DNA of 64,000 nt. Origin: Flaviramulus basaltis. Lineage in GTDB: Bacteria > Bacteroidota > Bacteroidia > Flavobacteriales > Flavobacteriaceae. The translations under genes were made by a program, and so were the position numbers. Shown one piece after another: positions 59,290 to 64,000 of the stretch (positions are counted from its first letter, which is position 1; every line of letters begins with the position of its first letter). A model generated the notes under the pieces. That model made no database searches. It saw only the letters and a list, made by a program, of their open reading frames with translations, and was not told where the DNA came from. The stretch spans positions 868,001-932,000 of the forward strand of contig NZ_FPKV01000001.1 of NCBI RefSeq assembly GCF_900114265.1, written 5' to 3'.

Positions 59290-59363
59290 GGGGATGTAGC
59301 TCAGTTGGCTAGAGTGCTTGACTGGCAGTCAAGAGGTCGTGGGTTCGAATCCCATCTTCTCCA
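59290..59363 (+). tRNA. tRNA-Ala (GGC anticodon)
   Basis: The 7-bp acceptor stem GGGGATG / CTTCTCC includes the G3-U70 alanine identity pair. One T6-T67 mismatch is present. The D-arm is GCTC..GAGT, the anticodon stem CTTGA/TCAAG has loop CTGGCAG (anticodon GGC), and the T-loop is TTCGAAT. CCA is not encoded. This 3' end is the likely attachment site of the following mobile element. Confidence 0.93.
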
Positions 59364-59376
59364 CTAGTTTTAACAA

Positions 59377-59467: not shown

Positions 59468-59917
59468 TTATTTCCCAGTTATTCTTTTTGTGAGCCAAAA
59501 CTTGTGACTTTTATCTAAAAAAACTACATAGAATGTGTTTTTAATAATATGACCAGCAACAATTGCTTTGCCTGTTATATGTATCCTTGCCCATTCAGCA
59601 TCAACGGGTATGTGGTCGGGGTTTTCAAACAATGTTTTGTGTTGTGGAGGGAAATCCCCGTAAATAGTAAATTTATCTCCATCAACTTGTCTTAATAGTG
59701 CACTGCAGCAATAACCTTGAAATACTTCTAATAATTTAGATAGTAATCCAGCTTTTTGCCAATCTTTAAAACTAGAGGCATATTGTTGTCTTGAATCTAA
59801 ATATTGAAATGACACTTTAAAATTACCCGAAGAAACAGCACTTTTACTTTTTTTATTTTCTAAAGCCTGAATAATTAAAGACTTTTCTTTGTGCTTGAAT
59901 GATGCTTTTTTAGCCAT
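59468..59917 (-). CDS. Putative toxin of Panacea-type TA pair
   Basis: This 149-aa protein follows the Panacea-domain gene and overlaps its end by 8 nt. The sequence is basic at the N-terminus (MAKKASFKHKEKS) with conserved-looking patches FQYLDSRQQYASSFKDWQKA, WARIHITGKAIVAGH and FLDKSHKFWLTKRI. I know similar pairs (short protein with Panacea partner) from plasmids and mobile elements. The toxin role is inferred from the partner; the biochemical activity is not known from the sequence. Confidence 0.7.
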   Translation of the reverse strand: MAKKASFKHKEKSLIIQALENKKSKSAVSSGNFKVSFQYLDSRQQYASSFKDWQKAGLLSKLLEVFQGYCCSALLRQVDGDKFTIYGDFPPQHKTLFENPDHIPVDAEWARIHITGKAIVAGHIIKNTFYVVFLDKSHKFWLTKRITGK

Positions 59918-60401
59918 TCATTTCAGCTCTGTAAAAGTTCAACATACTAGCCTTTGATATGTTGACGTTACAAATATCTCCTTGTGAATAACCTAGACGA
60001 GCCTCAATCCAAGGAGTTTCTTTATGAGTAGCAGATTCTAACTCTAGACCTGTCCATTTAGATAAAGTTTCTAAAACCTCATCAACTACTTCAAGTTGGC
60101 TAGAAGAAATTACATCTTTTAAATTAATTTCAGAATCAAAATCATATTCACTATAAGTGACATCGCTATAAAGTATTGATTTCCCTTTAAGGGTGTTATA
60201 AACACTTCGACAAACGGGTCCATGAACCCAAGCTTCAAAGTCTTCCTCAAACAAAGGCTCTTCAAAATGAGCTAAGTGATAAGCTTGACAATAATATAAA
60301 AGTTTTTGAAGTTTTAAATGAGACATTGGTCCAAAGTATTTTAATATATACCCTGATAAAGTAGATACTTTAATGCTCTTAAAATTATTTAGTGATTCCA
60401 T
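59910..60401 (-). CDS. Panacea (DUF4065/SocA-like) antitoxin
   Basis: This 163-aa DUF4065 protein has the signature LKLQKLLYYCQAYHLAHFEEPLF (in two pieces) followed by EDFEAWVHGPVCRSVYNTL. Its C-terminal part has the late motif HKETPWIEARLGYSQGD. These are the standard features of the Panacea domain, a neutralising antitoxin domain used in many TA systems and related to the GepA/SocA proteins. It is the first gene of the TA operon, and a promoter-like TATATTTG lies about 120 nt upstream. Confidence 0.88.
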   Translation of the reverse strand: MESLNNFKSIKVSTLSGYILKYFGPMSHLKLQKLLYYCQAYHLAHFEEPLFEEDFEAWVHGPVCRSVYNTLKGKSILYSDVTYSEYDFDSEINLKDVISSSQLEVVDEVLETLSKWTGLELESATHKETPWIEARLGYSQGDICNVNISKASMLNFYRAEMNG

Positions 60402-60742: not shown

Positions 60743-60973
60743 TTAATCAAAGTTAACAGAATACTTATCCAGTAAATAGCCTGTATTAAAACTTCTTATT
60801 TCTGTGATGGAATTTGTATCTGAATTGTAAACGACCTCAGCAAAGAACCTATAAACTGCATAAAGGTTGCACCGTTCCAACTTTGTAATATGGTTTTCTA
60901 TAAACGCACCTTGTTGGTTTACTACTTCCATGCGTTCGTTAAGAGCTAAGGCATTAAACTCGTATAAGGTCAT
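60743..60973 (-). CDS. Small mobile-element protein (76 aa)
   Basis: It begins MTLYEFNALALNERMEVVNQ and ends FNTGYLLDKYSVNFD. I recognise this MTLYEFN start from small, function-unknown proteins on Bacteroidetes mobile elements. Its start overlaps the stop of the ExoVII-like gene by 1 nt, so they are translationally coupled. It does not look like the XseB small subunit (no long helical hairpin with the conserved LE-x-x-L pattern). Confidence 0.75.
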   Translation of the reverse strand: MTLYEFNALALNERMEVVNQQGAFIENHITKLERCNLYAVYRFFAEVVYNSDTNSITEIRSFNTGYLLDKYSVNFD

Positions 60974-61974
60974 TATTGCTTGGTAGATAAGAAGTATATA
61001 AATGATAAAACAAAAAAGAATAATAAAATTAATATTACGTTTATTGTTTTTTTTTGAGTATTAATTTTGTTTGATGAGTTAAGTTTTTCTTCTTCTAAAT
61101 GCTTTTTGTATAAACTAATTTCATCGTCTTTTGTCTTAATTACTTTGATTCTTTCGTTATAAGTGTTTACAATTCCCTGCAAGAAACTACCAACTGCTGT
61201 TGGTGTTGAAAACCCTTTATCTGCTACTTTCTGTAATAAAGTTTTATCAGCATCATGTCCTATTCCTGTTATAAAAGGTACTGGTAACTCGATTGCTTTT
61301 TTGCATAACTCAATTTCATTAAACACTTCTAAACCACTTCCACCACCTCTTAATAAAATTAGTAAATCCGTGTCCTTAAATCCGCTAGAATTTAAAAAAT
61401 TTAGTATTTCGTCCTTTGTTGAAAGGTTGCATTTATGATGTCTAATTTCATAAAAATTAAAATCTGGAAGTTGCCCTAAATAATCATCCTTTGAAGTAGA
61501 TTGAACCCCTGTAATAACATCTAAAATAGGTTTTTGTCCCTTTTGTATCTTATCCGCTAAAACATCAGTAATCAAAGGAAAATCTCTTTCAAATCGAGCC
61601 TGTACTATATCATATTCCACTTTAGAAATTAGTTGAACCTCCTCTTTATATTTAAGAATTTTAGTTACTTTGAAATATACTTTTAGTCTTGAATTATTAT
61701 CCAAAGATTGACCTCTACTAATGTATCCTTGAAAATTATAATATTTTCCATTTGTGAGTTTAGTTTTTAAATCATTTGTTATCTGAATAGTGATTTTATG
61801 CTGTTTATCCTTACTAAGGATTTCATCGTAATAATATTGTCCGTAAAGTTTGTTATTGTTATCAGAAAAAAATCCTTCAACATCTATAAGGTTACCGTCC
61901 ATAGAAGATGACAGACTATTTGCATATAAATTTAATAGAGTTGAAACTGTAATAGTATTGTCCGTTTTAGACAT
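60973..61974 (-). CDS. Truncated, TM-anchored exonuclease VII large subunit-like protein
   Basis: This 333-aa protein has an N-terminal OB-like region (about 1-110) and an ExoVII_L catalytic region with TGVQSTSKDDYL, LLILLRGGGSGLEVFNEIEL (R209), ITGIGHDADKTLLQK (H240/D243) and STPTAVGSFL. All are close to XseA catalytic motifs. True XseA (400-450 aa) continues into a long coiled coil that binds XseB. Here only about 40 residues of coil follow, ending in a C-terminal TM segment (about 310-330). So the nuclease-like domain is membrane-tethered and lacks the XseB-binding arm. Its function is unknown; it could act in element transfer or defence. Confidence 0.85.
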   Translation of the reverse strand: MSKTDNTITVSTLLNLYANSLSSSMDGNLIDVEGFFSDNNNKLYGQYYYDEILSKDKQHKITIQITNDLKTKLTNGKYYNFQGYISRGQSLDNNSRLKVYFKVTKILKYKEEVQLISKVEYDIVQARFERDFPLITDVLADKIQKGQKPILDVITGVQSTSKDDYLGQLPDFNFYEIRHHKCNLSTKDEILNFLNSSGFKDTDLLILLRGGGSGLEVFNEIELCKKAIELPVPFITGIGHDADKTLLQKVADKGFSTPTAVGSFLQGIVNTYNERIKVIKTKDDEISLYKKHLEEEKLNSSNKINTQKKTINVILILLFFFVLSFIYFLSTKQ

Positions 61975-62043: not shown

Positions 62044-62370
62044 TCACATTTTAAAGCGTGTTTTTATTTTTTGCTCTGGCGAGATGTCTAGCGTTTTTTG
62101 CTCTGGTTTCCTCATAAAAACAAATTGAGGTCTTTTTGGTTGTTTAATATCGGTTTGAACTTCAATAGCTTTAAGTGTTGGTAAAACAAATTTTCCTAAT
62201 TCAATGATAATCTTTACGCGTTCAACTGGTTTTAACTTATCTAAATCAGCCTGTAAAACTTCCAAATTATTCTCTACTAATGTTTGAAATTTTCGTCTTA
62301 TTTCGAGCGTGTTTTTATTGGCTGTTCCTTTTTTACGCCCTCCGAATTTTTGCCCTGTGTTGTTTGCCAT
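62044..62370 (-). CDS. Small basic DUF5681-like element protein
   Basis: This 108-aa basic protein has GRKKGTANKNTLEIRRKFQT near the N-terminus (typical of DUF5681/phage-like small proteins), LKPVERVKIIIELGKFVLP in the middle, and a charged end (SPEQKIKTRFKM). Such proteins commonly occur on mobile elements and may bind DNA, although no function is proven. It follows the origin-like repeat region. Confidence 0.7.
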   Translation of the reverse strand: MANNTGQKFGGRKKGTANKNTLEIRRKFQTLVENNLEVLQADLDKLKPVERVKIIIELGKFVLPTLKAIEVQTDIKQPKRPQFVFMRKPEQKTLDISPEQKIKTRFKM

Positions 62371-62579: not shown

Positions 62580-63731
62580 CTAAAATTGTTTGGCTTGAAT
62601 ATATTCCCCAAGCGTGTAAGGTGCTTTGTTTTTCTCTTGAAGTAACCAGTTATTATTTTTGCAATCAGTAATTAACAACTTTGCTCTATTCATACCTATG
62701 GTGGCTTTGAGTTGGTTTTTATATGCTAAGCTTATCTGAATAACCAATTCAGAATAACTAAAGCTTAAACCGTTTGAAAACACCTCAGTTAATAATTGAT
62801 ACTTTTTAAAGTCTTCTAAATCTGAAACATCAAATTTGTTGTTTTTGGTTTCTGTTCTTACTTCAAAGTTTTCGGCGATTACAGGAATACCGTGTTCGTT
62901 TATTTCAAAGGCAAAAACCTCAGGTTCTATGTCTCTACATTGTAAAGGTGTTACTACTGAAATGGTGTTATCGTTTTCAGATTTTGCAATTTCCAGAACC
63001 GTTTCAGCTTTATTTATTAATTCAGTTCCAATATGACCACGGGCATTTGTATCGCTCTTGTTTTGATGCAATACAGTAACGATATGTATATTACGTTCCT
63101 CAGTCCATTTTAATAGCTTACTGGCTACGTTCGTGGCTTGCTCTTCATCGTTTATAGAGGTTACTAAATCTTTAATACCATCAATCACGACGAACCCAAT
63201 TTTATCATTACTGTAAATTTCATTTTCGATAAACTCCAGACGTTCCGACGGCGTTAAGCTTCTTAAATAGTAAACGTGTAAGTTCTTTGGTTCTGGCTGT
63301 TTAATCTGCGTGCAAATCCTTTTAACAGCCTTTTGTACGTGGTACTTTCCTTGTTCTGTATCAAAATATACCACTTCGTTTTGTAGTGGCGGTAAATGGC
63401 TTTTAAATAGTTCAAGTATTGTGTCTTTACTTAATGCCGCCGATACCGCTATATTAATGTAAAACGATTTACGGCTTTTTGCTTTACCTATTACAAGGCT
63501 AAAGTTTCCAAGCGTTCCCAGTATTGCGTAACCGTCTGTTTTGGTATTGGCTAAACTGTAAGCAATTTGGGGCGGTGGTATAACTTCCTTTACATCGATT
63601 TTGTATTTAAGCCGCTTTAGTTCGTGTTCTTTAATTTTCTGTTCTCGTATTGCCTCTGGAGTTATATTCTCTAATAAAGCATAAGTAGATTTATGAGAGG
63701 GGTCTTTTAAGAATTGTTTTTCGCTATCCAT
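62580..63731 (-). CDS. repA: RepA-like AAA family ATPase (AAA_25)
   Basis: This 383-aa RecA/AAA_25-type ATPase resembles RepA of plasmids and mobilisable elements. It has a Walker A variant VIGKAKSRKSFYINIAVSAA, a Walker B-like IGFVVIDGIKDLVTS, and the sensor-like IVTVLHQNKSDTNARGHIGT. The N-terminal 60 residues and a basic C-terminal region (KNQLKATIGMNRAKLLITDC) may bind DNA or partners. The iteron region lies directly downstream, fitting a replicative helicase/initiator role. Function in this element is inference. Confidence 0.82.
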   Translation of the reverse strand: MDSEKQFLKDPSHKSTYALLENITPEAIREQKIKEHELKRLKYKIDVKEVIPPPQIAYSLANTKTDGYAILGTLGNFSLVIGKAKSRKSFYINIAVSAALSKDTILELFKSHLPPLQNEVVYFDTEQGKYHVQKAVKRICTQIKQPEPKNLHVYYLRSLTPSERLEFIENEIYSNDKIGFVVIDGIKDLVTSINDEEQATNVASKLLKWTEERNIHIVTVLHQNKSDTNARGHIGTELINKAETVLEIAKSENDNTISVVTPLQCRDIEPEVFAFEINEHGIPVIAENFEVRTETKNNKFDVSDLEDFKKYQLLTEVFSNGLSFSYSELVIQISLAYKNQLKATIGMNRAKLLITDCKNNNWLLQEKNKAPYTLGEYIQAKQF

Positions 63732-63735
63732 TGTC

Positions 63736-64000
63736 CTATATATTTATGTCCAATGGATTTTTATAAGGCGAAATGTATGGTTCAAGTTTAAAAGGCTTTT
63801 CAAAACTTAATTCTCCATTATTCCAATAAACTTTATAGTTTTCCCCTTCACAGGTTTGTAGATGTTTCCCGTCTTCATCATGTCCAGTAATGCGAGTGCA
63901 TTCAAAAATCATGCGTTCAAAAGATACAGCTTCCTTTACTTCCTTAATAAATAATGCTTTAGCTGTTTTTTTTGTATCTTGTGCCTGTCCGTTCAAAGAC
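63736..64000 (-). CDS. Unknown element protein, 5' end beyond window
   Basis: The frame is open to the right edge of the window, so the true start may lie outside; a TTG at 63996 is the only candidate start seen. The visible part (about 86 residues) has FERMIFECTRITGHDEDGKH and KVYWNNGELSFEKPF. No family is recognised. Its stop is 4 nt before repA, so the two are probably co-transcribed. Confidence 0.55.
   Translation of the reverse strand, partial: SLNGQAQDTKKTAKALFIKEVKEAVSFERMIFECTRITGHDEDGKHLQTCEGENYKVYWNNGELSFEKPFKLEPYISPYKNPLDINI

Follow-up and report, generated by a model that had tools for sequence, protein, structure and literature searches.

Exonuclease VII-Like Nucleases with a Predicted Transmembrane Tail and No Detected XseB: a Clade Found on Mobile Elements and Near Defense and SOS Genes

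Exonuclease VII (ExoVII) is a soluble, two-subunit repair enzyme. The 64,000-nucleotide (nt) stretch of Flaviramulus basaltis DNA analyzed here (the window) encodes a 333-amino-acid (aa) relative of a different design. It keeps the nuclease core of the large subunit, XseA, and its four catalytic positions, but has a short coil and a predicted C-terminal transmembrane (TM) helix in place of the long region that binds the small subunit, XseB. It lies on a small integrative element, in a genome in which no XseB was found, and it belongs to a clade separate from canonical XseA. What is such a protein for? The reading favored here, with middling confidence, is that it would be a tail-anchored, XseB-independent ExoVII-type nuclease acting on single-stranded DNA (ssDNA) in genome-conflict modules and in SOS/translesion modules as well. 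The anatomy of the sequence, its conservation, the lack of a detectable XseB, the mobile element, and the gene neighborhoods were observed; ssDNA activity, membrane insertion and orientation, oligomerization, and the role in conflict are predictions made from them.

A bolder form of this reading is put forward tentatively, with more doubt than belief. This previously unrecognized clade might serve as an interchangeable, membrane-bound, ssDNA-shredding effector of unrelated defense systems (type I and type III restriction, TOTE, NERD-UvrD, and PD-(D/E)XK) and of SOS cassettes, destroying DNA at the membrane, the site of entry of foreign DNA, and being spread by small integrative elements and plasmids. 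If true, the implications would be 3-fold. (i) A housekeeping nuclease would be seen turning into an immune effector. (ii) A minimal, single-subunit ExoVII would become available for studies of mechanism. (iii) Defense operons in Bacteroidota would gain a new marker gene.

Catalytic Core and Domains

The window genome comprises 4.19 Mb in 32 contigs, and the nearest named relatives of the nuclease gene are from Flavobacteriaceae. The gene (60973..61974, minus strand) is an open reading frame (ORF) of 333 aa, assigned by Pfam, hydropathy, and alignment of catalytic residues. Its product belongs to PF02601 (Exonuc_VII_L), which matches residues 188 to 283 with 68.7 bits against a gathering cutoff of 35.9, yet it falls outside XseA proper, scoring 70.1 bits with the NCBIfam xseA model TIGR00237, below the cutoff of 180. 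The XseA catalytic motifs noted in a preliminary description of this DNA are indeed kept: RGGGSG at residues 209 to 214, GHDAD at 239 to 243, and STPTA at 256 to 260. Residues D164, R209, H240, and D243 align with D155, R205, H238, and D241 of Escherichia coli XseA, which we take to be its catalytic residues. The catalytic D, R, and H do not vary in any of the 17 clade rows or 12 canonical rows of the alignment; at the fourth position, canonical XseA has D or N and the clade D, N, or E. Two residues past TPTA, all 17 clade rows have Gly, versus Ala in all 12 canonical rows.

How is the protein built around these residues? Profile-profile comparison matches the clade with canonical XseA in both the OB-like and the nuclease region (probability 99.6%, E value of 5e-24), and a profile search with the nuclease finds chain A of PDB entry 8txr, titled ExoVII(H238A), at 3e-8. 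The N-terminal region (approximately residues 27 to 110; 61645..61896, minus strand) may adopt an OB-like fold, judging from the profile match to the canonical XseA N terminus and from strands in a low-confidence structure model; a Pfam scan of the 333-aa protein gave no OB-fold match. The ExoVII nuclease core, which holds D164, R209, H240, and D243, occupies approximately residues 149 to 268 (61171..61530, minus strand), its approximate borders drawn from Pfam, profile, and alignment. It is followed, on the same minus strand, by a short helical coil predicted by the structure model (approximately residues 269 to 310, about 42 residues; 61045..61170) and by the predicted C-terminal TM helix (residues 311 to 329; 60988..61044). 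Structure prediction, which had been suggested as a check, renders residues 258 to 332 as a single continuous helix, with a block pLDDT of about 60 to 82 from residue 281 on and lower values before, but the nuclease model as a whole, with a pLDDT of 49.6, is too poor to interpret. A fold search with this model placed 8txr second (Z of 6.6), but with an rmsd of 21 over 144 residues and many Rossmann-like entries at similar Z, and is not taken as proof.

A Tail Shared by Most of the Clade

Replacement of the long XseB-binding coil by a short coil and a C-terminal TM helix had been proposed from the window sequence alone, and the wider comparison upholds it. The tail was measured as the best 19-mer Kyte-Doolittle (KD) score within the last 60 residues, a value of 1.85 or more being counted as a tail. 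The best C-terminal 19-mer of the window nuclease starts at residue 311 and scores 2.83. Of 33 intact clade members drawn from collections of genomes, plasmids, and phages, 30 have the tail, several of these 30 being close relatives, versus 0 of 31 canonical XseA proteins from the same phylum, in which the maximum is 1.36. The tail-less exceptions are L019, which ends early in the coil; L085, a distant protein from Fusobacterium; and L084, with a KD of 1.34. Set aside from the 33 were the broken, truncated, or unresolved copies L082, L083, L142, L143, and L086 and the duplicate L071. As background, a KD of 1.8 or more is reached by 10.4% of the 404 ORFs at clade loci, a set that includes the focal genes, and by 5.8% of the 293 ORFs at control loci. 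The helix at the nuclease C terminus is predicted by hydropathy; that it inserts into the membrane, and in which orientation, we infer.

Could the TM stretch have arisen by a frameshift or an assembly error? All three copies in the window genome (L072, L073, and L074) end in a TM tail, and because the tail is conserved in these copies and across the clade, such an artifact is ruled out. The short coil, by comparison, is particular to the window's subclade, other TM-tailed members having longer coils. Among members that have a tail or nearly have one, total length ranges from 305 aa (L084) to 498 aa, and coil length varies alongside.

A Clade Apart from XseA

Is the window protein simply a canonical XseA that has lost its subunit? 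In a tree of 56 proteins, the 25 clade rows and the 31 canonical rows lie on opposite sides of a split with 100/100 support; the placement of three long branches (L085, L022, and L084) is uncertain. XseB (PF02609) was found in 0 of 16 genomes with a clade gene, the window genome included. As a control for this search, PF02609 matches in 10 of 14 named control genomes. A small ORF in the same direction, XseB-like by eye, lies within 80 nt of 24 of 31 canonical xseA genes. In all 16 genomes, PF02601 matches nothing other than the clade genes, which occupy 18 places in total, two of them broken. The window genome has just three PF02601 matches, all of the short, TM-tailed type, and the counterevidence foreseen in the preliminary description, close full-length XseA relatives in the same context, did not appear. 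Since the tree splits and the genomes are without another PF02601 match, a canonical XseA lacking its subunit is disfavored. The tail, the XseB count, and the separate clade together support the original suggestion of a distinct use of the ExoVII fold, here one with a TM tail and no XseB. Independence from XseB is nevertheless called into question by E. coli XseA, which is reported to need XseB to bind DNA (cited in the accessible text of PMC11077951), a point that weighs against a lone large subunit unless another component takes the place of XseB.

The clade is rare. Full-length matches occur in 6 of 395 genomes of a phylum sample, 2 of 397 genomes of the family, 13 of 395 of the order, and 2 of 237 of a class sample. 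In family f5, 27 of 158 genomes have a PF02601 match: 17 of the clade type (two broken), two clade-type fragments, seven canonical-like, and one broken and unassigned, the types being read from score and match range. None of these 27 genomes has both the clade and the canonical type. Broken or truncated nuclease copies in family f5 genomes (L082, L083, L142, and L143) suggest gene turnover, and one genome (G1178) has one intact and one broken copy.

Other relatives are found on plasmids of Bacteroides, Prevotella, Thermus, and Allomeiothermus; the plasmid copy from Bacteroides has no TM helix at its end, and that of Allomeiothermus has a tail with a KD of only 1.34. A distant, 512-aa relative without a TM tail (L085:5896-7434) comes from a plasmid of Fusobacterium varium, where trbJ, trbL, and traF lie about 2 to 5 kb upstream. 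A phage origin was considered and rejected: scans of viral contigs with nuclease alignments gave no match and then one weak, partial one (L054), and a viral-contig scan with the 108-aa protein described below gave none. An unannotated 7.2-kb gut "phage" scaffold does carry a TM-tailed relative.

The Element Carrying the Window Copy

The gene had been thought to lie on a mobile element, and the boundaries of that element were located. An exact 48-bp direct repeat of the tRNA-Ala 3' end, its copies 7369 bp apart, encloses an integrase and delimits a 7.4-kb integrative element. One attachment-site copy (59317..59364, plus strand) is within the tRNA-Ala gene (59290-59364); the other, at 66686-66733 in the window's frame, is past the window. 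Between the repeats are a Panacea gene with an overlapping 149-aa ORF, the 76-aa gene, the nuclease gene, and genes for a 108-aa DUF5681-like protein, an AAA_25 protein, a 96-aa protein, an excisionase-like helix-turn-helix (HTH) protein, a 253-aa protein, and a tyrosine integrase. The 108-aa protein (62044..62370, minus strand) is similar, at 4e-6 and over 66% of its length, to a Bacteroides phage protein that carries the annotation DUF5681, and it has relatives in other small elements. The AAA_25 protein (62580..63731, minus strand), assigned by Pfam and similarity, resembles phage primase/helicase proteins, and the gene for the 96-aa protein (L074:5736-6026) lies partly within the window (63736..64000, minus strand) and extends beyond its end. 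No capsid or relaxase family matched the element proteins in Pfam or PHROGs (the 110-aa protein being searched by PHROGs only), and no TOTE domain (TPR-OB or TBP) was present among those scanned by Pfam.

The remaining cargo spans 59468-60401 and includes a Panacea (SocA-like) antitoxin-type protein (59910..60401, minus strand; PF13274, 6e-25), whose gene is overlapped by the 149-aa ORF (59468..59917, minus strand), which is without a Pfam family. The two likely form a toxin-antitoxin pair, with the 149-aa product as the candidate, unrecognized toxin.

Three other small elements (L130, L131, and L132), each located beside a tmRNA or tRNA gene and each with a relative of the 108-aa protein, share by eye the order integrase, one gene (441 aa in L130 and about 230 to 240 aa in L131 and L132), HTH, replication genes, DUF5681-like gene, variable cargo, and tmRNA or tRNA gene. 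L131 has no cargo past its last DUF5681-like gene. By blastp at 1e-4, proteins of these three match those of the window element only in the DUF5681-like gene. In elements of this type the variable cargo slot adjoins the attachment site, and the window nuclease occupies that slot.

The 76-aa Neighbor

The gene directly after the nuclease (60743..60973, minus strand) encodes a 76-aa protein and shares 1 nt with the end of the nuclease gene. Relatives occupy the same position at 5 of 7 distinct subclade loci, with overlaps of 1 nt (L074 and L018) or 4 nt (L015) or gaps of 97 nt (L017) and 43 nt (L072). At L073 and L016, a SRAP gene precedes the nuclease and no 76-aa partner comes after it. In L080 and L135, weak relatives (7e-4 and 3e-4) are located upstream of the nuclease, at a distance of about 1.4 kb. 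The family itself is present in 17 of 149 family genomes, the window genome and G481 included, and mostly stands alone: the 17 regions around other 76-aa copies contained no ExoVII-like gene, the small ORF itself being unrecovered in 4 of the 17. The coupling proposed in the preliminary description is therefore real but local; the partner marks one subclade and does not define the clade.

Might it stand in for XseB under another name? XseB is all-helical. The 76-aa protein is modeled with two helices, four strands, and one final helix (pLDDT of 85.5), and PF02609 has no match in the genome, so the identification with XseB was rejected, in agreement with the first impression that the two are unlike. 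A fold search of the model against the PDB returned nothing at an E value of 0.001 or less, the top entry being AcrF1 at 0.024, and PADLOC has no model for either this protein or the nuclease at an E value of 1 or less. What may be a repeat in the L018 partner gene is probably coincidental. About 3.3 kb from the L073 nuclease, which is itself without an intact adjoining partner, there is a degenerate 76-aa gene copy (G000:C11:194296-194520).

Gene Neighborhoods

The survey of TM-tailed homologs and their neighbors that had been recommended was made on 26 representative loci picked by hand. It omitted close relatives (L075, L076, L078, L135, L136, and L138), the fragments L142 and L143, the duplicate L071, and the plasmid loci L022, L084, L085, and L086. 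Defense-type genes (restriction, TOTE, NERD-UvrD, PD-(D/E)XK, and others) are found at 10 of the 26, a tally assembled by hand, control loci having been scanned by PADLOC and marker proteins only. Translesion/SOS genes are found at six (L016, L069, L073, L080, L081, and L082), and L135 and L136 add two more in the larger set of 35. Neither class is present at 11 of the 26, and several family f5 loci resemble ordinary chromosome. Both facts, like the lack of a PADLOC model for the nuclease, count against the favored reading, and the six translesion/SOS loci would suit a repair role equally.

The clearest defense locus is L140:1888-16512, where a type I restriction-modification system, a TOTE-type helicase, and TPR-OB genes surround the nuclease on one strand. 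The order is an ATPase-like ORF (by eye), a 339-aa protein, a helicase with a TBP-TOTE domain (PADLOC PDC-M16A), a DUF7017/S1CSD-TOTE protein, the nuclease, HIRAN, HsdM, HsdS, a 182-aa protein, and HsdR. At L134:1384-14691, also on one strand, type III methylase and restriction genes come before the nuclease, as does the gene for an 895-aa protein weakly similar to UvrD_C_2; NERD-UvrD and an ORF that looks ATPase-like by eye come after it. The nuclease gene here overlaps the preceding gene by 10 nt and stops 4 nt before NERD-UvrD. NERD-UvrD recurs at L083, together with an N6-methylase, around a broken nuclease copy. L021 has PDDEXK_4 (PADLOC PDC-S26) beside the nuclease, and the annotated PD-(D/E)XK nuclease found in the same place in L019 clusters with it. 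Annotated GIY-YIG, WYL, and methyltransferase genes accompany L020, NACHT accompanies L018, and HSDR_N_2, TIR_2, and SMODS accompany L015. Of the other copies in the window genome, L072 has an HsdS gene nearby and L073 an HsdM-like gene, the latter recognized by clustering only.

The translesion/SOS loci include tight arrangements. In L073, umuC, umuD, SRAP, and nuclease genes form a chain with 1-nt overlaps throughout, and in L016 a SRAP gene precedes the nuclease with a 1-nt overlap. An AlkB-like gene is 11 nt upstream of the broken copy in L082, a LigD-type fusion is 44 nt upstream of the nuclease in L069, and S24-type repressor, imuB-like, and DnaE-like genes are found at L080, L082, L135, and L136.

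How much weight can these neighbors bear? PADLOC matched 368 model families among 126 nearest neighbors versus 25 among 100 control neighbors, a contrast that is inflated because restriction models are redundant and that serves as a pointer only: one HsdS alone matched 95 models, and no model matched more than 3 of the 126. The association of the nuclease with its neighbors is strong in single operons and only suggestive in number.

Alternative Readings

One alternative is a nuclease of the DNA damage response that replaces XseAB in repair and translesion cassettes, trimming ssDNA or clearing DNA-protein adducts, with mobile elements spreading the SOS module. The L073 chain, the SRAP gene with the same 1-nt overlap in L016, the repair-type genes at L080, L082, L135, L136, and L069, and the finding of XseB in none of 16 genomes would all suit it. 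So would the Y-family genes located within 9 kb of 5 of 18 clade places (16 genomes), versus 0.26 expected from density, although positions were compared by hand, the loci are not independent, and three of the five are in one family. The direct comparison of loci is less favorable, translesion/SOS genes occurring at 8 of 35 clade loci versus 1 of 20 canonical XseA loci (one-sided p of 0.085, not significant); the 20 control loci also contain one AlkB-like and one SRAP-like gene. With defense genes at 10 of 26 loci, and with a fork nuclease not being expected to be membrane-anchored, this account is judged unlikely, if deserving of some weight.

The 1-nt and 4-nt overlaps with the 76-aa gene, the adjoining Panacea pair, and the reported toxicity of excess XseA (also cited in the accessible text of PMC11077951) raise a different idea, that of a restrained toxic nuclease. 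The 76-aa protein would bind and control it, as an antidote or a substitute for XseB, and its release would damage cellular DNA. This is thought improbable: the partner is missing at 2 of 7 distinct subclade loci and, in the rest of the clade, did not turn up at most loci; its gene is 97 nt (L017) or 43 nt (L072) away in others; its family mostly stands alone; and its predicted fold has no PDB match at the threshold given above. Finally, the broken and truncated copies L082, L083, L142, and L143 could be taken to mean that the gene is decaying or hitchhiking and useless to the element. The selection estimate tells against this, dN/dS being 0.04 to 0.11 in six nuclease pairs (with dS over 1.3 in three of them), as do the invariant catalytic residues, and the idea is given very little credence.

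Proposed Mechanism and Comparison with Known Systems

RmuC, a membrane-anchored, coiled-coil nuclease linked to recombination, offers a likeness. It too combines a membrane anchor, a coil, and a nuclease domain, but its TM segment is N-terminal and its fold is PD-(D/E)XK. For a tail-anchored, XseB-independent ExoVII, the OB-like and nuclease domains would be cytoplasmic, with the coil and the single C-terminal TM helix holding the nuclease at the inner membrane. Anchor and coil self-association might together replace the XseB-stabilized ExoVII body, providing both assembly and placement. ExoVII is described as processive, highly specific for ssDNA, and able to act from either end, releasing products of 4 to 12 nt (accessible text of PMC3434165). 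The anchored form would likewise cut ssDNA near the membrane to oligonucleotides. The single strands would be supplied by DNA entry itself or by partner helicases and restriction enzymes, the helicases opening strands once restriction or replication damage has occurred. One could then picture the nuclease as an interchangeable part of genome-conflict and SOS/translesion modules, used by mobile elements and hosts, and the window copy as element cargo that probably limits competing phages or plasmids.

Has anything of this kind been described? Among the matches listed in a literature search that covered titles and abstract openings, most subscription papers lying outside it, no TM-tailed ExoVII appeared. 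An association of UmuC with SRAP is described in the accessible text of PMC12926913; the umuC-like and SRAP genes directly before the nuclease in L073 and L016 resemble it, with the chain gaining a nuclease. The UmuC-SRAP passages there name no nuclease and "exonuclease VII" does not occur in the main text, and the main text of an SRAP paper (PMC3765255) is likewise without the words exonuclease, nuclease, and ExoVII. TOTE conflict systems, named for TPR, OB, TBP, and Effector, are presented in a preprint (accessible text of PMC12458937). TOTE was recognized at 1 of the 26 representative loci, L140, where the nuclease comes directly after the TBP-TOTE and S1CSD-TOTE genes. A further mixed arrangement is seen at L015:111-14578, in which RadC, SSB, SprT-like, and ParA-type genes are followed by the nuclease, a 78-aa partner, and then TIR and SMODS genes (CBASS-like).
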